Below the pieces are notes generated by a model. It was given only the letters and a program-made list of their open reading frames with translations, made no database searches and was not told where the DNA came from. Source: Planctomycetaceae bacterium (lineage in GTDB: Bacteria > Planctomycetota > Planctomycetia > Pirellulales > UBA1268). Taken from it: a stretch of 35,351 nt of DNA. Location of the stretch: assembly GCA_947449135.1 (NCBI GenBank), contig CANFQO010000029.1:1-35351 (forward strand), read 5' to 3'. Shown in pieces: positions 5,255-35,351 of this stretch. The position numbers and the translations under genes were made by a program. Numbering within the stretch: the stretch's first letter is position 1; every line of letters begins with the position of its first letter.

Positions 5255-5307
5255 GAACGTCATCCTGTGGTCGTATCGCTCAAAAAAGGTCGCGGAGAAA
5301 TCAGCCT

Positions 5308-6159
5308 GTGAAGCTCATTCGGTTTGGAACACGCGGTGCCGAGAAGCCGGGCCTTGTCGCGGCGGATGGCACCATCAGGGACTGCTCGGCGCACGTGACC
5401 GACTACGACCATGCGTTCTTCGCCGGCGGCGGACTGGAGCGACTTCGGGCAGTGGCGGCACGCGCCGACGTGCTGCCCGCCGCCCCCGTCGGCGTGCGGG
5501 TCGGTGCGCCGATTGCCCGGCCCAGAAACGTGTTTGCAATCGGTCTCAACTACTCAGACCACGCCAAGGAGACCGGTGCCGCAGTGCCGGCCGAGCCGAT
5601 CCTGTTCATGAAGGCCACCAGTGCCGTCTGCGGCCCCTATGATCCGATCCTCATTCCTCGCGGCAGCGAGAAGACCGACTGGGAGGTGGAATTGGGCATC
5701 GTGATCGGCCGCGACGCCCGCTACCTGCCCTCGAAGGAGGCCGCCCACGGCGTGATCGCGGGCTACTGCGTGGCCAACGACGTCTCGGAGCGGGCATTCC
5801 AGATCGAGCGGGGCGGCCAGTGGAGCAAGGGCAAGTCGAGTGAAAACTTTCTCCCGCTGGGGCCCTGGCTCGTGACCGCCGACGAAGTTCCCCAGCCGCA
5901 GAGCCTCGGCCTCTCGCTCGATGTCAACGGCCGACGTCGGCAGACCGGCAACTCGTCCACGATGATTTTCGATGTCTGGCAGATCGTGCACTACCTCTCG
6001 CAATTTCTTCTGCTTGAAGCAGGCGACCTCATCATCACCGGCACGCCGCCCGGCGTCGGGATGGGCTGCAAGCCGCCGGAATATCTGAAGGTGGGAGACG
6101 TCGTCGAGTTGAGCATCGACGGCCTTGGCTGCCAGCAAAGCGTCTGCCAGCAGGCATGA
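5308..6159 (+). CDS. fumarylacetoacetate hydrolase family protein
   Basis: A 283-residue member of the FAH superfamily (COG0179), which cleaves or hydrates 2-oxo or 2,4-diketo acids with a divalent metal. The metal site is visible as DWEVELGIVIG (E126, E128) with a later aspartate in VANDVSERAFQ (D158). NVFAIGLNYSDHAKE and ITGTPPGVGMG are standard family blocks. I choose GTG 5308 because GGAG at 5294-5297 is 10 bases upstream and the protein then begins KLIRFGTRG, the normal FAH-like N-terminus; the longer open frame upstream overlaps the esterase and is not coding. Candidate activities are 2,4-diketo-3-deoxy-sugar-acid hydrolase or 2-oxohept-3-enedioate hydratase; neighbours do not decide between them. 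Confidence 0.88.
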   Translation: MKLIRFGTRGAEKPGLVAADGTIRDCSAHVTDYDHAFFAGGGLERLRAVAARADVLPAAPVGVRVGAPIARPRNVFAIGLNYSDHAKETGAAVPAEPILFMKATSAVCGPYDPILIPRGSEKTDWEVELGIVIGRDARYLPSKEAAHGVIAGYCVANDVSERAFQIERGGQWSKGKSSENFLPLGPWLVTADEVPQPQSLGLSLDVNGRRRQTGNSSTMIFDVWQIVHYLSQFLLLEAGDLIITGTPPGVGMGCKPPEYLKVGDVVELSIDGLGCQQSVCQQA

Positions 6160-6184
6160 GGCATCGCGTCGCGAGACGATGGCC

Positions 6185-7900
6185 TTAGGCGGCGGCCCGC
6201 ATAAGTGCCGGTGATGCGGTCGGTTCGGCAGAGGTGTCGCAGCCACAGTCGCGGATCACGTCCATCATCGTCAGGAGCACCTCCTCGCGGATGGCGAGGT
6301 GCTCGTCGTCGTCGCTGGTCAGTGCGACGGCCGAGACATCCACGCTGATGGCGCTGGGTGTGGCCGATGCTAGCCTTGCGTTGGCGGGCTCGTTGGCCAG
6401 CCGTTTGTGATCCACGAGCACCCGCTGCAGGCGATCGAGTAGCTTCCGCAATGTGCGCGGGGCAATGTTGGGCTGCAACGTGAGTGTGAAGGCGAGCGGG
6501 ATGTGGTCGCGCTGCGTGTAGTTCACGAGTTGCATCTTCGCAAACTCCGCATTGGGCACGGAGATCACCGAGCGGTCGGCGCCGCGGATCCGCGTTGACC
6601 GCAGGCCGATTCTCTCCACATGACCGCGAACCGAGCCAAACTGGCAGTCGTCGCCTATCCGCACGGGCTTGTCGGTGAAGATCACGATTCCGGCGATGAG
6701 GTTTTCGATCGTGTATTGCGAGGCGAGCGCCACCGCGAGGCCGCCCGCGCCAAGCCCGGCCATCAGCGGCGTCACGGGGATGCCGATCGAGTCGGCGGCG
6801 TTGAGGAGAATCCAGGCGATCAGGATGAACGTCGATACCTTACCGGCCAGCCGAATGAGCTGGCTGTCGACCGCCTCCGGCCGGAGTCCCTTGGCGTTGA
6901 TCAGCAGATCACACAGCCATGACATCGCTACCAGCACGCCGCCAAGCACGCCCACCAGCATCACGACATGCAGACCGATCTTGATCGCGAGCAGTTTGTC
7001 GCCGGTGATGCGGATCTGGTAGGTCAGCAGCGTGTCGCTGGCCACACTGACGGCAACCAGCACGGCCGGGAACAGGAGCCGGCCCGCGAAATCCCTGGTC
7101 CGCACGCCGTCGGCGTGCACGCGTCGCCTCCAGGCACGCCGCACCAGCGAGAATGAACCCAGGAACACAAGCGTCATGGCGATCCATTGCCAGACCGTCT
7201 CGCCGAGGATCCGCATGTGGGCCCACGCAGGCAATCCGCGGATCAGCGACTCGGGGATCATCCAGCCGCCGAGGGTGACGTAGGCCTCATGCAGGCCTGG
7301 ACTGCCGGCATCAGCACGGTACGGGATGTGGCGGACGAGGTCGTAGAACCGCTCGGCCTGAGCCACAGTCTCCGCGCTGAAGATAAAGTCGCCTTCCCGC
7401 GGGCCGTCTGCGATTCGAGAGAGGGTGATCTCGGTGCCGGGGAGCCGCCAACGCTTGAGTCCGGCGGCCTTGACGGCGGCGGCATCGGGAATCTCATCGG
7501 CGGGCGGCAGAGGAACGCGGTCGAGCACTTCCTTCAGGCAGACAATCGCCTGACGGCTCTCGGAATCGACCAACGACGAGGCGATGCCCGAGAGGTCGAG
7601 GCATGTCACCGTCTGCATGAGCAGCCGTCGAGTCTCCAGCCGTTCCTTGAGTGTGTGCGTTTTGGCCGTGAAGTTGGCGTTGATGCGGTCGACGGTGTCA
7701 CAGAAGCTTCGCAGTGTGGCGCGGGGGCTGGACGTATCGAGTGGAGCCAGTGGGTTGCTGGCGGCAGCGGCGGTCGGTCCGGCGTTGATCTCGCCGTCGG
7801 CCCAGATGACACCCCGTTGCAGTGACAGCACGACCAGCGGCGTCAGGACCATGATCCTGAACCAATCCGGGAGGCGATGTCTCGGCGGGAGTGACAGCAC
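6185..7900 (-). CDS. MscS-family mechanosensitive ion channel
   Basis: A 571-residue small-conductance mechanosensitive channel with a long N-terminal extension. A signal-like hydrophobic segment (about 13-30) is followed by about 200 mostly soluble residues, probably periplasmic, then transmembrane segments near 236-253, 272-293, 303-333 and 354-370. The pore helix and beta domain begin at LMAGLGAGGLAVALASQYTI (379-398), with KPVRIGD at 411-417 and SVPNAEF near 447, all standard MscS motifs. The start is GTG 7900, with ATG 7852 as an alternative; neither has a strong ribosome binding site. The gene is convergent with the FAH gene, 25 bases apart. It likely releases osmolytes on hypo-osmotic shock. 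Confidence 0.88.
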   Translation of the reverse strand: MLSLPPRHRLPDWFRIMVLTPLVVLSLQRGVIWADGEINAGPTAAAASNPLAPLDTSSPRATLRSFCDTVDRINANFTAKTHTLKERLETRRLLMQTVTCLDLSGIASSLVDSESRQAIVCLKEVLDRVPLPPADEIPDAAAVKAAGLKRWRLPGTEITLSRIADGPREGDFIFSAETVAQAERFYDLVRHIPYRADAGSPGLHEAYVTLGGWMIPESLIRGLPAWAHMRILGETVWQWIAMTLVFLGSFSLVRRAWRRRVHADGVRTRDFAGRLLFPAVLVAVSVASDTLLTYQIRITGDKLLAIKIGLHVVMLVGVLGGVLVAMSWLCDLLINAKGLRPEAVDSQLIRLAGKVSTFILIAWILLNAADSIGIPVTPLMAGLGAGGLAVALASQYTIENLIAGIVIFTDKPVRIGDDCQFGSVRGHVERIGLRSTRIRGADRSVISVPNAEFAKMQLVNYTQRDHIPLAFTLTLQPNIAPRTLRKLLDRLQRVLVDHKRLANEPANARLASATPSAISVDVSAVALTSDDDEHLAIREEVLLTMMDVIRDCGCDTSAEPTASPALMRAAA

Positions 7901-7973
7901 GGCGGGCTCTGTGGGGGCTGGGGCTTCTGGGGGCGGGAGAAATAGCAGGAGCCTGTTTTCCGGGCAAGCCCGT

Positions 7974-9317
7974 TCAGGCCCGGCTGGCTGCGCCTGTGGC
8001 TATCGGAAGGGCCCAGGCTGCCGCCGCGGGCAGAGCTGCGGCCAGCTGAACCGCCCCCGACACAAGATTCGAGTGACGGACCCCGCGGGCCACCCACCGG
8101 CAGCGGGCGTGATGGGCAGCGAACAGCCGCTTGTGCAGGAGCGGGTATCTCTCGGCTGCCGCGACGATGTCGGTCGTGGTGAGCGGTTCGCCTGTGGCTT
8201 CATCGCCGAGTAGCGATTCGGCCAGGAGCCGGCCGCTGGCCAGTGCCCAGCCGATACCTTCGCCTGTGAACGGCTCCACGTAGCTGGCGGCATCCCCCAC
8301 GCGGAAGATCCGCTGTGATCGGCCTGCGATTCTGGGCGAGGAATGCGTAAGCGGAGGGGTGGCCCGGAACGTGGCTGTAGCAACCGCTTCGAGCGCGTCG
8401 TCGAACGCGGCGGTGGTCCAGCGGTCGCCACCAGCCAAACGGATAAGATTCACAATCCCAGCCGCCGGTCCACCCGCAGCCGCAAGCACATGTCGGTCGA
8501 CAGCTGCGGCCAGATCGAGCCGGCCGTCCTCCAGCCGGACGAGGCCGCAATAGCCGTGGCGAGCGACCGCCATCACGAGTTCGCCGGGCGGCAGATCGAT
8601 CGCTGAGGGCAGACTTGCAGCAGACGCGGCGCTCAGTGTCGTGCCCACTCCGATGCGACTGCCCGACGCCACGCGGCGGTCGCGCGGCGTGTGGGCCTGG
8701 GGGTTGGCGGTGGCCAAGCCGCGACCGTCGGCCGGGACGACGTGGATCGTATCGGCGAGGCCGGCGGCGATCACCACCATGCGACTTCGCAACTCCGCGG
8801 CTTCCTGCTGCTGTAACGTCGTGGCTCGAGCCACGACCGTGACGGATTCGACGTCGTGACCTGCTGGGGGCTCGTGAATGGCGTCTACCGTCAGGTTCGG
8901 CAGCCATTCCGCTCCGGCAGCGATCGCCTGCCGCACGAGTGCCGTGTCGAGCGATTCTCGCGACAAAACGCCGCCGCCCGGCATCGGGATATTGGCCGAC
9001 CTGCCTGCTGATACGAGCCGCACGGTCGTCAGCGGCAGCGCCGCGGAGAGCGAATGAGGCGGACAGATGGCCGCGAGTTCGGCGCGTGCCAAGGGAGACA
9101 GGCAGCAGCCACAGACCTTCGGCCGGGGCATTTTCGACCGGTCGACCAACAGCACGCGCAGGCCCTGGCGGGCCAAGCGAATCGCGACTGCCGAGCCAGC
9201 TGGACCTGCACCGATGACGACGCAGTGCCAGTTAATCAGAGTGGCGGCCACCGGCGTGATCGTCGGCAGCACTGCGGCGGGCTCGCTTGAAGAGCCGAGG
9301 GCAGCGGGGGCGGTCAT
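7974..9317 (-). CDS. FAD-dependent oxidoreductase, geranylgeranyl-reductase-like
   Basis: A 447-residue flavoprotein of the geranylgeranyl reductase/FAD-dependent monooxygenase group. CVVIGAGPAGSAVAIRLARQ (32-51) is the Rossmann FAD-binding motif, VLLVDRS ends the second strand, and RPKVCGCCLSP (65-75) is the CG-loop typical of geranylgeranyl-reductase-like enzymes. A second FAD motif, RVGDAASYVEPFTGEGIGWA, appears in the C-terminal third. ATG 9317 overlaps the stop of the upstream methyltransferase as ATGA, so the two are probably co-translated. This pairing of a methyltransferase with an FAD reductase is known beside type III polyketide synthases or isoprenoid quinone genes; no such synthase is inside this window, so the substrate is unknown. 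Confidence 0.82.
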   Translation of the reverse strand: MTAPAALGSSSEPAAVLPTITPVAATLINWHCVVIGAGPAGSAVAIRLARQGLRVLLVDRSKMPRPKVCGCCLSPLARAELAAICPPHSLSAALPLTTVRLVSAGRSANIPMPGGGVLSRESLDTALVRQAIAAGAEWLPNLTVDAIHEPPAGHDVESVTVVARATTLQQQEAAELRSRMVVIAAGLADTIHVVPADGRGLATANPQAHTPRDRRVASGSRIGVGTTLSAASAASLPSAIDLPPGELVMAVARHGYCGLVRLEDGRLDLAAAVDRHVLAAAGGPAAGIVNLIRLAGGDRWTTAAFDDALEAVATATFRATPPLTHSSPRIAGRSQRIFRVGDAASYVEPFTGEGIGWALASGRLLAESLLGDEATGEPLTTTDIVAAAERYPLLHKRLFAAHHARCRWVARGVRHSNLVSGAVQLAAALPAAAAWALPIATGAASRA

Positions 9318-10123
9318 GCAGTTCCCGGCACGGTGGACAGTGCCGGCTCGATGTCGGGTCGCGTCCAGACGATGATCGCTCGCTCCGGCCATGCCCAGCG
9401 GATCGTAGCACCGTGGAGGCCGGCGCGGTCGAGCAGCGTGCGGTATTCGCGGGGTGTGCGGGCGGCCCGCACGGAAAGTGGTCCATCCACTCGGGCCACC
9501 CGCGACCGCGATAGCACCGCCGTACCCACCACGGCGAGTGCGAGCCCTGCTGCGGTTCGCAGCAGGTCTGACACGACGATCCCGATCCGGGCCGCACGGG
9601 ACAGCGACGCGAGCACATGGACCGCGTCATCGTCGTCGAGGTGATGCAGGAAGAGCGAGACCGTGGCAATGTCGCAGGGCGGACAGGCGTCGGCCAGGAT
9701 GTCGTGCACGGTGAAAGACACGTGTGCTGAACCGGTCCGCCGATGCGAATGACGCTCCGCCCGCGCGACGGCGCGTGGGCTCTTGTCGAGGCCGGTCACA
9801 TGCACCGCTGGCCTGCCCACTGCTGCGGCGGACAGTCGTCGGCTGAGCCTGCGGGCGACCGCTGCGGTCACATCGCCGCCACCACAGGCGACATCGACAA
9901 CATGGAATGGCTGGTGCTCACGACAGGCATGACGTGTTGCAGACAGGGGCGGGCGGTGGCTGGCCTTCATGCGGGCAATCGCCCGGACCACCTGCGACGA
10001 AGTCAGCGACAGCATGTTGATGCGGGCCAGGGCATCGAGAGCATGCATGTGGTCGGCCGCCGGCAGTGCCGGGTCGTCCATCAATTCAGACTGTCGAGTA
10101 CGAGGGATCGACCAGAACGGCAC
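9314..10123 (-). CDS. class I SAM-dependent methyltransferase
   Basis: A 269-residue Rossmann-fold methyltransferase. VVDVACGGGDVTAAVARRL (near 74-92) is motif I that binds S-adenosylmethionine, VTGLDKSPRAV is motif II, and ATVSLFLHHLDDDDAV is the post-motif region usual in UbiE-like and polyketide-tailoring methyltransferases. The N-terminus SELMDDPALPAADHMHALDA resembles methyltransferases found beside type III polyketide synthases; that comparison is from memory of the family. Start is GTG 10123, with GGAG 10 bases upstream on the minus strand. It overlaps the downstream FAD oxidoreductase by 4 bases, so the two form a coupled unit. The substrate is probably a lipid phenol or quinone-like compound, by inference. 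Confidence 0.8.
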   Translation of the reverse strand: MPFWSIPRTRQSELMDDPALPAADHMHALDALARINMLSLTSSQVVRAIARMKASHRPPLSATRHACREHQPFHVVDVACGGGDVTAAVARRLSRRLSAAAVGRPAVHVTGLDKSPRAVARAERHSHRRTGSAHVSFTVHDILADACPPCDIATVSLFLHHLDDDDAVHVLASLSRAARIGIVVSDLLRTAAGLALAVVGTAVLSRSRVARVDGPLSVRAARTPREYRTLLDRAGLHGATIRWAWPERAIIVWTRPDIEPALSTVPGTA

Positions 10124-10222
10124 GGCTTTGAGTCTCCACCGCGGATGGCACGAGTGATCTACTCGGCCATCATACGACGTTTCGTCGCGGCGGACGGTCT
10201 GTCGAAAGATTCAGGGGCTTGT

Positions 10223-10669
10223 TCAGGGGCCCGGTGGGCACGGCGGCGTCTGCCCACTTCCGTCAATCATGGTGACGGGCACGGCGGCACCGCCTACGAC
10301 CATGCCGTCTGCCGAGCACGGCGGGCAGTCGCCACCGACTGCCGGCACGATCATGCCGTCGGTCGTCATCGGAGTACCGGACACGACGGCGCCGGGCGGC
10401 AGGCTCCCCGCCGGCACGGCACTGGCAGGAACGCCAGCCGCAGCATAGGCGGCCGGTTGGGCAGGCATCTGCACCTGGGGTTGCTGGGGCTGCGGGTAGA
10501 CCGGCGGCGCATACGGAGGCGCGTAGGCATATTGATCCGCGCGGTGATGGGCACAACCGACCGTGACCAGGCAGCAGGCTGTGAGCCAGATCGTCAGCAG
10601 GTGAGTCCACGTCCCACACACCGCGGCCATCACTCCGCACAAAGTGCTGCAGAGCCAGCGAATTCGCAT
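10223..10669 (-). CDS. small proline-rich lipoprotein, unknown function
   Basis: A 148-residue protein with a long hydrophobic N-terminal segment that ends in LVTVGC, a lipobox, so it should be a lipid-anchored envelope protein after processing. The mature part is of low complexity: Tyr/Pro/Gln-rich (YAYAPPYAPPVYPQPQQPQ), then Ala/Gly/Pro-rich with several cysteines (GDCPPCSADG, QTPPCPPGP). No enzymatic domain is recognised. ATG 10669 is preferred because GGGAG lies 9 bases upstream on the minus strand; the much longer open frame above it is not supported. It lies between the FIST gene and the methyltransferase on the same strand, with about 85 and 100 bases of spacing. Confidence 0.65.
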   Translation of the reverse strand: MRIRWLCSTLCGVMAAVCGTWTHLLTIWLTACCLVTVGCAHHRADQYAYAPPYAPPVYPQPQQPQVQMPAQPAAYAAAGVPASAVPAGSLPPGAVVSGTPMTTDGMIVPAVGGDCPPCSADGMVVGGAAVPVTMIDGSGQTPPCPPGP

Positions 10670-10754
10670 GCGCACCGTCTCCCTTCGAGTCGGTGGACGG
10701 TAGGCCGAGGGATTCAGCAGGGCAAGGCCAGAACGGCCCCGCCCTTCTGGCGGC

Positions 10755-11966
10755 TCATTCGCCTCGCTCGAATAAGGCGATGCTGGCGGTGAACCCGTGC
10801 AGGCAGTTGCGCCGGCCGATTGGGCCGATCTCCCCTTGCGCAAAGAACCCGGCGGCCGGGACGGGGCCGATGGTGTCCTGCAGACAGCGGGCATCGTGGC
10901 TGGCCTCGGCGAACAGCCGTGTGCCGCGGCCGTTGCAGCTGAAGACGAGCGCGCCGGCCGGCGTTGCGCCGCGGTCCTTCTCCTGGGCCAGAAGGAGGGC
11001 CAGATCATCGTGGGCGCTCTTCGCATCGCGAACATGGAACTGGATCGTCTGGCCCGTTCGAACCAGATCCCCCACCGCTATCACTCCCGAGTCCGGATCG
11101 GCGCCCACGACGTTTCGCACCAGGAAGTCGCCTCGTTGGAAGTGGTCCTGATATTCGCTGGCCACGCGGCCGACATGAAGCGACGTGCGGACGAGCTCGC
11201 GGTCGGCGGGATCGAGTTCGCCATACACCTCCCGCAGTCGCTCGAGCGCGGGCTTGCCGCCGAGTTCGACGATGACGTTCTCCTCCGATTTCGTGATCAC
11301 CATCGGCCGGCCGATCGGCCGGCAGCCCTGCGACACGACCGGCCGGACGCGGGCTGCTCCGCCGATGAGAAACCCAACCGCTCCTGAGTCATACGACCGT
11401 GAGTCGACGACGAGCGTGTTGCTGCCGGGTTGGTGACCGCCGCTCGCCATGCCACCCACGATCGGCACGCCAGGGTGGTCCTCTTCGACCCGCTTGATCA
11501 GCGCGTCGACTGGAAAGGAAAACGGGTCGGCGAACAGCACGATCGCGGCGTTGTCGGGCCAGATGCCATCGAGTGCGGAAGGCCAGCCGACAAACATGCC
11601 GCCGTCGGGCGTCTGCGTGTATTCGAGCGCGAAGGGCACCACGCTAGCCCCGGGCAGACGGGCCAGCCAGACGGCCACCGCCGGCCCTGATTCAAACTCA
11701 ACGTCGGCGGCGAGCAACGCCTCGGCGGTCGTGGCGACCACGGTCCGTGCCCCAAGCACCTCACTGAGGCCTTCCATCGCGGGCCGGATTGCTTCGCCAT
11801 AGCCCGCAGAGACGAACACCACGGCCACGTCGGCTCCACCTCCGAGCTGCCGTGCCGCAGCCTCCGCTGCGTCGCGAATCGCTTGGTCGATCCGCGGATC
11901 GGTCGATGACGCGACGGCGCAGCGAATTCCAGTGGTTGGGGGCGGCGCTATCGGCTCAGCGGGCAT
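10755..11966 (-). CDS. FIST-domain signal transduction protein (FIST_N + FIST_C)
   Basis: A 403-residue stand-alone FIST protein. The N-terminal half (about 35-230) is FIST_N, with DVAVVFVSAGYGEA, a VVATTAEALLA strand and the VPIVGGMASGGHQPGSNTLV block; the C-terminal half (about 240-385) is FIST_C, with the PAGALVFSCNGRGTRLF and VPAAGFFAQGEIGPIG signatures. FIST domains are thought to sense small ligands such as amino acids, and often sit in front of kinases or cyclases; here there is no fused output domain and no transmembrane segment. It starts at ATG 11966 without a clear ribosome binding site. The downstream gene is the small lipoprotein, and the methionine salvage genes lie upstream on the same strand. 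Confidence 0.88.
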   Translation of the reverse strand: MPAEPIAPPPTTGIRCAVASSTDPRIDQAIRDAAEAAARQLGGGADVAVVFVSAGYGEAIRPAMEGLSEVLGARTVVATTAEALLAADVEFESGPAVAVWLARLPGASVVPFALEYTQTPDGGMFVGWPSALDGIWPDNAAIVLFADPFSFPVDALIKRVEEDHPGVPIVGGMASGGHQPGSNTLVVDSRSYDSGAVGFLIGGAARVRPVVSQGCRPIGRPMVITKSEENVIVELGGKPALERLREVYGELDPADRELVRTSLHVGRVASEYQDHFQRGDFLVRNVVGADPDSGVIAVGDLVRTGQTIQFHVRDAKSAHDDLALLLAQEKDRGATPAGALVFSCNGRGTRLFAEASHDARCLQDTIGPVPAAGFFAQGEIGPIGRRNCLHGFTASIALFERGE

Positions 11967-29766: not shown

Positions 29767-29923
29767 GCGCGACTGGCGATCACGTCTGAGGAGATTGCCA
29801 CGATTGGCGATGGGCAATGCCTCAGACCACTTCAAGGCGACCGCCAGCGTGACGGCCGAATCCTTCGCTGTTGAGGGGTTTGCCAAGGCGATCGAGCGGT
29901 TCATCCAGGGCGACGCGACATGA
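29767..29923 (+). pseudogene. Cof-type HAD phosphatase remnant, C-terminal end
   Basis: Two neighbouring frames together resemble the C-terminus of Cof/HAD-IIB phosphatases. The first (29767-29811) reads ARLAITSEEIATIGD, the usual run-up to the HAD motif IV aspartate. Directly after, another frame reads MGNASDHFKATASVTAESFA and VEGFAKAIERFIQ to a stop at 29923. The intervening conserved part (normally GDxxND...MF) is missing, and the two ends meet at GGCGATG (29806-29812), a sequence likely present on both sides before the deletion. The remaining stop overlaps the rpiA start as ATGA, so the ancestral gene was probably coupled to rpiA. The upstream part of the gene is not recognisable. Confidence 0.7.
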
Positions 29924-30642
29924 GCAGCGACGCCAACCCTCACGCCGCCTGGAAGCGGGCTGCAGCCTATGCCGCCGTCGAACTCGTCACCGACGGCATG
30001 ATCGTCGGCATCGGGACCGGATCGACCGCGACTTTTGCTATTCATGCGCTCGCCGATCGGATGCGTGCAGGTCTCCGGGTTCTCGGCATTCCCTCCTCTG
30101 ACCGCAGCGCCGTTCTGGCCACATCGCTCGGAATTCCTCTGACCACGTTTGCCGACCATCCGCGGATCGACGTGACGATCGACGGCGCCGATGAGGTGGA
30201 ACGCGGCACGCTGAATCTCATCAAGGGGCACGGCGGTGCCCTCCTACGCGAGAAGATCGTCGCCGTTGCCAGCCGCCGCCTCGCGATCATCGTCGATGGT
30301 ACGAAACTGGTCGACCGGCTGGGGGAGCGCTCGGCGGTCCCCGTGGAGGTCGTTTCCTTCGGCTGGGAGGCGACGAGGGGCCGACTCGAAGCTCTGGGCG
30401 CAACGGTCGATCTGCGGCGCTCCGCAGACGGCAAGCCATTCTGCACCGACAACGGTAATAGGATCCTCGACTGCCGCTTCGGCCCAATCGCCGACCCAGC
30501 AAGGCTGGAGGAACAGATTGGCCGGATCGTCGGTGTCGTCGAGTGTGGGCTGTTCGTCGGCATCGCCGATGTGGTCTTTATCGGTGACGCGGCGGGCGTC
30601 ACTCGCTTGGAGCGGAGTCCAGGGCCGTCGGCGGGTAGGTAA
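29920..30642 (+). CDS. rpiA: ribose-5-phosphate isomerase A
   Basis: A 240-residue RpiA, which interconverts ribose-5-phosphate and ribulose-5-phosphate. IGTGSTATFAIHAL (31-44) is the phosphate-binding loop, DGADEVE (88-94) and KGHGGALLREK (102-112) hold the catalytic residues, including E111. Length is near the family norm, with a slightly longer C-terminal tail. ATG 29920 overlaps the stop of a broken HAD gene, so the original translational coupling may be impaired; a promoter in the divergent region with pgl could still drive it. Its 3' end overlaps the convergent DUF488 remnant by 44 bases. Confidence 0.93.
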   Translation: MSSDANPHAAWKRAAAYAAVELVTDGMIVGIGTGSTATFAIHALADRMRAGLRVLGIPSSDRSAVLATSLGIPLTTFADHPRIDVTIDGADEVERGTLNLIKGHGGALLREKIVAVASRRLAIIVDGTKLVDRLGERSAVPVEVVSFGWEATRGRLEALGATVDLRRSADGKPFCTDNGNRILDCRFGPIADPARLEEQIGRIVGVVECGLFVGIADVVFIGDAAGVTRLERSPGPSAGR

Positions 30643-30853
30643 TCCGCGTTCCCACGACGTGGACGATCGACGTGAGTTTGTGAGGCCGGGCTCTTGAAGG
30701 CCCGTAGATGTCGTTCACCGCGACGCCGCGGACCAAGAGCGAAACCGCGATCAACGACCGGTGGCACCGCCACGGCTCGGCTTCAGCGCACAATATCGCC
30801 GTCACACCCTGACGGGCCCGCACGAGCAACGCGTTGAGGCTGGCCTGGAAATC
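30599..30853 (-). pseudogene. DUF488 protein remnant, N-terminus lost
   Basis: The frame reads DFQASLNALLVRARQGVTAI, LCAEAEPWRCHRSLIAVSLL, then ARPHKLTSIVHVVGTRITYP and a stop at 30599. CAEAEPWRCHR is the C-terminal signature of DUF488 proteins. Intact members have about 150-180 residues and begin with a TIGHS/VDVRSxP region; this is absent. The frame stays open to 30916, but that upstream part overlaps the remnant of a NADH dehydrogenase in the other direction. The N-terminal part was probably lost in the same deletion that removed the front of the NADH dehydrogenase. Confidence 0.72.
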
Positions 30854-30854
30854 C

Positions 30855-31070
30855 GCAGTGATCATCGCCGACGGCATGGCAGCCTGCACCGGCAAGCCGT
30901 TCAGCGACGTCGTCAAGTGGACGATGGCGACGATCGGCCGCGGGGCGGCCGTCGTGGAGCTGGCGTTTGGTCAGACGCTCACCGGCACCGTGACCTGGCT
31001 GGCATGGCGTGGCGTCCACCTGCTTCTTGTGAGCGGAACTCAGGAGAAAAGCACCGTGTTCCTTAAATGA
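30855..31070 (+). pseudogene. type II NADH dehydrogenase (NDH-2) remnant, C-terminus only
   Basis: The frame reads SAVIIADGMAACTGKPFSDV, VKWTMATIGRGAAVVELAFG, then TVTWLAWRGVHLLLVSGTQE to a stop at 31070. This matches the C-terminal membrane-anchoring end of NDH-2 (usual pattern: PFRYxDKGTMATIGRxxAV...WLxWxxVHLxxLxG). The FAD and NADH domains (over 300 residues) are missing and no start codon with a ribosome binding site precedes it. Some conserved positions have changed (DKG to VKW). It begins where the reverse-strand DUF488 remnant ends, so both lost their front halves at one junction near 30854. Confidence 0.68.
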
Positions 31071-31179
31071 GGCTGGAGTCTGCTGGCACGCAAACACGGG
31101 AAGCGGATCATCCTGGGTCAGTCCACTGTCGGCACGGGGCGGGAGTAGGCCGTTTCTGCAGGAGGGCAGGCGTTCCAAC

Positions 31180-31335
31180 GTGAACAGCACACTCGCGGTC
31201 GACATCGGCGGCTTGCACGTGAAGATCCGGATTCCGTCCGACCCTGAAAAGAGGCATTGTGACAGCGGTTCCGCGCTCACACCGCGGCAGGTGGTCGACG
31301 GCGTGCCGGTGCACGACGAAGGCCGTAGCCGGTAA
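31180..31335 (+). pseudogene. ROK-family/polyphosphate-glucokinase-like remnant, N-terminus only
   Basis: A 51-codon frame from GTG 31180 reads NSTLAVDIGGLHVKIRIPSD, then HCDSGSALTPRQVVDGVPV and a stop at 31335. It resembles the first 45 residues of ROK-type polyphosphate glucokinases, which start with an ATP-binding DIGGTHVK and continue SGPxLTPxQMVxGV. The phosphate-binding threonine is changed to leucine here, and the remaining 200 or so residues are missing. The sequence diverges right after VDGV, suggesting another deletion end. A short functional peptide is possible but less likely. Confidence 0.55.
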
Positions 31336-31541
31336 AAGGCGGCGTCACTGCCCGTTTGGTGCGCCAGACGCCCGTTTTGTGCGCGCCAACAGACTTGTTC
31401 GTACCAAATTCTTGACGGCAGCCGGTTTTCAAGCTTTCCTAGAGCCGGTCTGAGCCAGCAGACAGGCCGCCTCAAGGGGCCTTTCGAAATCGTGACATCC
31501 CAAAGTTGCTTCAAGCAATTGAGTCTTTGAAAAGGACTTCT
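31336..31541. other. non-coding stretch before the DUF1254/1214 gene, with an imperfect tandem repeat
   Basis: No gene is recognised. Two copies of GCCCGTTT(G/T)GTGCGC lie 20 bases apart at 31350-31364 and 31370-31384. Downstream, the sequence becomes AT-richer (from about 31390), consistent with a promoter for the surface-protein gene at 31542; TTGACG at 31412-31417 could be a -35 element but no good -10 follows at 17 bases. Confidence 0.35.
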
Positions 31542-33797: not shown

Positions 33798-33867
33798 TCA
33801 CGTCTTCACCCTGCGACTCATCCCAACTCTTTTCGGCCCTTCCACGAAGCACGCACTAGGATCATCA

Positions 33868-35351
33868 ATGTCGCCTTTCATTCGCCCCCGACCCACGTCG
33901 CTTCGCACGGCTCACCCCAACCGACGCCGTTCCCGTCATGACGGTCGCGGCCGAGGTCCTAGCGCCGGCAGCCGCTCTGCCCGTGGTCCGTTGACGCTTG
34001 AACAGCTCGAGGGCCGGCAGGTGCTGGCGGCATTCGTCGCCTCGGAGACCTACGTGGTCAACACGCTCGCCGACTCGGGGCCCGGCTCGCTCCGTGAGGC
34101 AATCATAGCTGCCAACAAGCACAAGGGCGTTGATGCGATCGACTTCAGTGTCGCGGGCACGATCTCGCTAAAGTCGGCGCTGCCTGCCGTCACGGACTCG
34201 CTCGAGCTTGATGGCTCGTCCGCCCCGGGGTACGCCGGCAAGCCGATCGTGACGCTTGATTTCCAGAACAATGCCGGCCTCGTCGTCTCCGTGGGTGCCG
34301 ACGGCTCGGTGATCCAGTCGCTCTCGCTGGTCGATTCGAGCGGCGCGGGAATCAGCCTCTCCGCGTCTGCAGTGACCGTGGCGGGCAACTACATCGGCCT
34401 GCGGGCGGATGGCTCGACGATCGAGAGCAACCGCGGCGATGGCGTGGCGATCCTGGACGGCTCGCACGACAACCTGATCGGCAACGACGACAGCACGTCC
34501 GCGTTCGCGCTTTCCAACGTGATCTCAGGCAATCGCGGCAACGGCGTGAGCATCACGGGCGTCGGTGCGACGAAGAATATCGTCTCCATGAACTATATCG
34601 GCACCGATATCAGCGGCACTCGGAACCGTGGCAATGGTGGCAACGGCGTGGTGATCACGGCCAACGCCACCGGCAATCTCATCGGCGGCGAGGCGACCGG
34701 TGGCAACGACCCGACGAAGGGCGTGTTCGTCCGGCCGCCGCAGGGCAACCTGATCTCGGGCAACTACGCCAACGGCGTGCTGATCAGCGAGGGGGCGGAG
34801 TCCAACCAACTGAGCGGCAACTATGTCGGGACGACTGCCTCGGGCCTCGCCCCGCTCGGCAACGCCCTCGATGGCGTGGCGATCGTGGGAGCCGACAACA
34901 ACAGCCTCCTCGGCACCACGCTGAACCAGAATCCGTTCGTCTTCTACAACGTGCTTTCGGGCAACGGCGGCAACGGCCTGCGGATCACCGACTCGGACAA
35001 CACCACGGTCTACGCCAACTTCATGGGCCTTGGTCGCAACAACAAGACGCCCGTGCCCAACGGCGGCAATGGCCTGCTCGTGTCGGGTGACTCGCAGGGC
35101 GTCACGCTCGGCGGAGTGATCCCGCTGGGCAACGTGATCTCGGGTAACAAGGGCAATGGCATCGAGATTCGCGACACCGCCAGCGGCGTGAATTCGTGGA
35201 ACAGCTTCGTGGGCATGGTGGCATTCGGCGGAGCGGTCGCGAACGGCAAGAACGGCATCCTGATCACGTCCAGCAATCCCGCCTTTGATCTGAATCATCA
35301 GCAAACCTGGAACATCATCCGCACGTCGCTGATCGGCGGCAATGTCGGCAA
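33868..35351 (+). CDS. giant parallel beta-helix surface protein, N-terminal part (partial)
   Basis: Starts at ATG 33868 (AGGA 6 bases upstream) and stays open for 494 codons to the window edge, so it is truncated on the right. The first 40 residues are Arg/Ser-rich, followed by LEQLEGRQVLAA (44-55), a variant of the LEPR-type motif. VNTLADSGPGSLREAIIAAN (64-83) is the typical opening of planctomycete and related autotransporter-like beta-helix proteins. The rest is right-handed beta-helix repeats with N-x-IGTD/N-x-ISGN turns (for example NLISGNYANGVLISEGAESN and NYIGTDISGT). It probably forms an extracellular adhesin or surface fibre. It is 70 bases after the DUF1254/1214 gene, which carries the same motif. 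Confidence 0.85.
   Translation, partial: MSPFIRPRPTSLRTAHPNRRRSRHDGRGRGPSAGSRSARGPLTLEQLEGRQVLAAFVASETYVVNTLADSGPGSLREAIIAANKHKGVDAIDFSVAGTISLKSALPAVTDSLELDGSSAPGYAGKPIVTLDFQNNAGLVVSVGADGSVIQSLSLVDSSGAGISLSASAVTVAGNYIGLRADGSTIESNRGDGVAILDGSHDNLIGNDDSTSAFALSNVISGNRGNGVSITGVGATKNIVSMNYIGTDISGTRNRGNGGNGVVITANATGNLIGGEATGGNDPTKGVFVRPPQGNLISGNYANGVLISEGAESNQLSGNYVGTTASGLAPLGNALDGVAIVGADNNSLLGTTLNQNPFVFYNVLSGNGGNGLRITDSDNTTVYANFMGLGRNNKTPVPNGGNGLLVSGDSQGVTLGGVIPLGNVISGNKGNGIEIRDTASGVNSWNSFVGMVAFGGAVANGKNGILITSSNPAFDLNHQQTWNIIRTSLIGGNVG
34516..35170 (+). repeat. degenerate coding repeats in the beta-helix gene
   Basis: At least four copies of a roughly 40-base unit, AACSTGATCTCGGGCAAC followed by GGCAACGGC, start at about 34516, 34747, 34948 and 35131. 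Each encodes N-V/L-I/L-SGN-x(2-3)-NG, one turn pair of the beta-helix. The irregular spacing (231, 201 and 183 bases) shows longer repeat blocks of different length around a conserved core. Confidence 0.6.

Follow-up and report, generated by a model that had tools for sequence, protein, structure and literature searches.

Tails of a DUF488 gene and an NDH-2 gene left head to head, probably by one 3.5-kb deletion, beside rpiA in a Planctomycetaceae genome

Beside rpiA in Planctomycetaceae bacterium GCA_947449135.1 (genome G000), the 3' pieces of two genes on opposite strands adjoin head to head. A single deletion of about 3.5 kb very probably produced this arrangement, taking the head of a DUF488 gene, the whole of glgX and the front of ndh-2 and leaving only the two tails. 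The window analyzed here is a stretch of 35,351 nt of contig CANFQO010000029.1, in which remnants of four genes lie within ~1.5 kb around rpiA.

The intact rpiA (ribose-5-phosphate isomerase A; 29920-30642, plus strand; PF06026, E 1e-60) provides the left synteny anchor. On the minus strand, the frame 30916-30599 matched PF04343 (E 2e-7), with profile positions 80-118 present in place of the full-length 121-position DUF488 domain; the remnant keeps the signature CAEAxPWRCHRSLIA and the C-terminal half of the protein. When the intact DUF488 protein of a relative, G067, was used as a tblastn query, its residues 99-185 aligned to window 30865-30605 with 75% identity. The remnant (30605-30865, minus strand) comprises codons 99-185 of 186, its head deleted. 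On the plus strand, the frame 30834-31070 matched PF22366 (NDH2_C) with an E value of 6e-6, one bit below the curated cut-off, and residues 338-422 of the intact G067 NDH-2 aligned to window 30864-31127. In the search of 72 family genomes, the NDH-2 remnant was recovered with E 1e-30 and one TGA. We place this remnant, covering approximately residues 338-422 of 427, at about 30866-31127 on the plus strand. The C-terminal domain alone is left of a functional NDH-2, the Pyr_redox_2 FAD/NAD domains being absent.

The preliminary description had proposed a beheaded DUF488 gene and a beheaded NDH-2 gene lying head to head, and both the profile matches and the intact G067 proteins bear this out. Its junction at 30853/30855 correctly captured two abutting homologies but was some 10 bases off, as the protein homologies meet at ~30865. 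Likewise, the NDH-2 identity of the plus-strand fragment stands but its end at 31070 does not: the in-frame TGA at ~31068, at a position where every aligned intact homologue has Trp, interrupts a homology that continues to 31127.

The intact counterpart was found by a DNA search of relatives. G067 belongs to the same family as the genome of the window and to another genus. Window 29920-30865 corresponds to G067 C17:33383-34328 and window 30895-31306 to C17:37827-38242, in the same order and on the same strand. The left-hand DNA match (E 0; 82% identity) ends at 30865 and the right-hand one (E 1e-97; 79% identity) begins at 30895, with ~80% identity at the main junction; such a two-sided match exceeds chance by far. 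In L032, the sequence of contig C17, positions 5271-6329 align to window 29807-30865. The collinear genes of L032 are all complete: rpiA (5384-6106, plus); DUF488, convergent with rpiA (6626-6063, minus; full PF04343 domain); glgX of 703 codons (6680-8791, plus; TIGR02100 above cut-off); ndh-2 of 427 codons, 3 bases past glgX (8795-10078, plus; Pyr_redox_2, PF07992, and NDH2_C, PF22366); and ROK (10117-10779, plus; ROK family match). Judging from spacing and strand, glgX, ndh-2 and ROK probably form one operon. The record CAMBSN010000017.1, a contig of G067, is titled Candidatus Kuenenia stuttgartiensis; the genome set puts G067 in the family of the window, and the title looks wrong.

Between the two flank matches, G067 has 3,498 bases (L032 6330-9827) and the window has 29; the intervening segment is absent at the junction (30865-30894). 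Relative to G067, the window has lost the whole of glgX (703 codons) and ~340 of the 427 ndh-2 codons, along with 98 of the 186 codons of DUF488 and the 53 bases of the divergent promoter region. The 29 junction bases can be read, weakly, as codons of NDH-2 (IADGMAACTGKPF versus LAEGKPAEPF) with a 3-codon insertion. This places the left breakpoint at 30865, give or take a couple of bases; the right breakpoint falls within 30866-30894, an uncertainty of ~30 bases. A single deletion beheading both genes, as the preliminary description had predicted, is supported by the presence of both G067 flanks without the middle. Its picture of two neighboring divergent genes with a common promoter was mistaken, since a whole glgX lies between them in G067; the promoter partner of DUF488 there is glgX, and ndh-2 follows glgX in the same operon. 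The search for a relative with intact DUF488 and ndh genes did find both, in the expected orientation, but not adjacent.

We considered whether glgX and the missing front parts of DUF488 and ndh-2 could instead have been lost separately, in several successive deletions. The locus did suffer more than one deletion, as the ROK core and the head of a HAD hydrolase are also gone, and the ~29 junction bases align poorly with both parents. Yet hardly any sequence separates the two homologies, and the only trace of the 3.5 kb in the window is a 21-base match elsewhere, at chance level. One event is enough. We therefore regard a series of losses as unlikely and infer that the large segment was lost in one event.

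The long form of the locus is the ancestral one: other families of the order have NDH-2 of the same type at full length (G180, G210, G177 and G159; 65-68% identity), and no insertion could have rebuilt two or three whole genes. In the proposed course of events, an ancestor would have carried DUF488 to the right of rpiA and, divergent from DUF488, an operon of glgX, ndh-2 and ROK. The deletion of ~3.5 kb, reaching from codon 98/99 of DUF488 to near codon 338-345 of ndh-2, would have occurred in one event, after which relaxed selection would have let the DUF488 and ndh-2 remnants decay. The core of the downstream ROK gene would have gone in a second deletion, of roughly 0.5 kb. The mechanism may have been illegitimate recombination, perhaps aided by mobile elements of the kind that accompany these genes in relatives.

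In G052 (L036 1-1465), DUF488 has a 49-codon rpiA tail on one side and IS91-type (Y2_Tnp) and ISL3 transposase fragments on the other, as if it might have been carried off by a mobile element. The IS91-type piece of G052 also adjoins a ROK 3' fragment in G067 C145, and a longer copy is present in G001 (PF04986, E 2e-22). That the same piece abuts DUF488 in one genome and the 3' end of ROK in another hints that the block moves. The DUF488-glgX-ndh-2-ROK cassette might then be a mobile accessory block, moved between the genera of the family with the aid of IS91-type (Y2 transposase) rolling-circle elements, with the window representing its stepwise loss; we consider this unlikely. Searches of the window gave no convincing match to the IS91-type piece of G052 and G067 C145, and searches of G000 gave none. 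Plasmid records contained no similar sequence. A role for insertion sequences in the deletion seen in the window is speculation.

We next return to the single deletion and the fate of the tails it would have left. In the NDH-2 C-terminus, 62 columns are invariant in four outgroup sequences; in these, 13 changes were found only in the window and 0 only in G067 (p 0.0002), as opposed to 7 and 21, respectively, for rpiA in the same comparison. Together with the TGA, the 13 versus 0 count points to relaxed constraint on the NDH-2 remnant. For DUF488, the relative-rate counts of 11, 6 and 5 lack an outgroup and are uninformative, and 11 versus 6 is at most suggestive. Against G067, dN/dS came to 0.17 for rpiA (83% amino acid identity) and was higher in the two tails (DUF488, 0.30; NDH-2, 0.32), although the intervals overlap. 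Assuming an omega of 1 after the deletion and of 0.17-0.26 before it, the neutral phase would comprise about 8-18% of the total synonymous distance between G000 and G067. This is a rough relative age and not a date; the preliminary claim that the locus dates the loss of NDH-2 was therefore too strong, although the gene is indeed lost from G000.

From their sequences, the DUF488 and NDH-2 tails appear to be non-functional relics. The NDH-2 remnant cannot be an enzyme, because its FAD/NAD-binding domains are deleted and its C-terminus is stopped by the TGA. Could one of the short forms nevertheless be a real small protein? Open frames of 105 (minus strand), 78 (plus strand) and 51 codons (ROK remnant) exist, and omega is still below 1, but omega also reflects the long period that preceded the deletion. 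The ROK remnant has lost nearly everything past its first 42 codons and NDH-2 its Pyr_redox_2 domain, and a check for conserved short proteins, suggested beforehand, found such forms in no other of the 72 family genomes, which makes a functional short form very improbable. It is likewise very improbable that unrelated contigs were joined by an assembly or binning artefact. A single genome, a 169-contig draft assembly, shows the junction, but order and orientation agree with G067 on either side of the gap, and the fragments have since decayed (TGA, 13 versus 0), as intact genes joined in a chimaera would not have done.

We also evaluated what the genome has lost and kept. An intact NDH-2 of the G067 type was found in 1 of 72 family genomes, G067 itself, and its remnant in G000 only; DUF488 of this type occurs in G067 and G052 and as the remnant in G000. 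Complex I (NuoD-type, PF00346), in contrast, is present in all 72, G000 included. Searches of the G000 genome found no second NDH2_C match, hence no intact NDH-2 elsewhere, no other DUF488 and no NQR. G000 has a resident glgX-type gene (C1:43471-45144) with 53% identity to the lost glgX. Given that NDH-2 is present in one genome and Complex I in all, this is not the loss of an ancestral respiratory component. The lost genes were accessory, and the cell retains a main NADH dehydrogenase.

The closest known counterparts are bacterial pseudogenes formed by deletion, as in Shigella gene decay (PMC3218036; reviewed in PMC11078800). The locus resembles them in its truncated tails, premature stop, relaxed constraint and patchy accessory genes being lost. 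It differs in that one deletion would behead two opposite-strand genes and remove a third between them, and nothing marks the host of the window as a pathogen or symbiont. The NDH-2 fragment corresponds to the C-terminal domain of a protein whose nearest intact copy is in G067, and the DUF488 remnant to the family's signature and C-terminal half with codons 1-98 missing. Titles and abstracts revealed no literature specific to this locus. This is ordinary bacterial gene decay, but with an intact relative at hand to compare with the sequence on either side of the scar. It serves as a worked example of a deletion predicted from raw sequence by tool-free reading and then confirmed by such a relative. 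It also shows that an accessory NADH dehydrogenase, encoded in a probable operon together with a second glycogen debranching enzyme and a ROK-type sugar kinase, was once present in this lineage and was lost while Complex I was kept. General views of respiration or genome decay are unchanged.

Two further broken genes flank these remnants. Upstream, a HAD-IIB (Cof-type) hydrolase that is complete in G067 (TIGR00099 above cut-off) is reduced in the window to a tail of ~39 codons directly before rpiA (29804-29922, plus), which aligns to G067 and is itself a weak Pfam match. The same-genus genomes G001 and G002 have an even shorter piece of this gene and different neighbors beside rpiA, so the main junction was not seen twice. 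Downstream, the ROK (polyphosphate-glucokinase-like) remnant (31180-31335, plus) carries an in-frame internal deletion: codons 1-42 (31180-31305), which match codons 1-42 of the G067 C17 ROK, are joined to the last approximately ten codons (VPVHDEGRSR) and the stop. This 3' part has its counterpart on G067 C145, where the end of a second ROK copy and the DNA downstream of it match window 31292-31386. At the ROK junction, GTGC is common to both parents and is short enough for chance. In the same downstream DNA, two 15-base copies of GCCCGTTTNGTGCGC (31350-31384) start 20 bases apart; the spaced pair recurs at G000:C124:362-396 and, with one mismatch, at G000:C18:28602-28636 and G067:C145:5744-5778. 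Farther right, several overlapping copies in parts of G067 C145 match window 33862-35281 with 81-91% DNA identity; this region looks like a repetitive gene cut off by the end of the contig.
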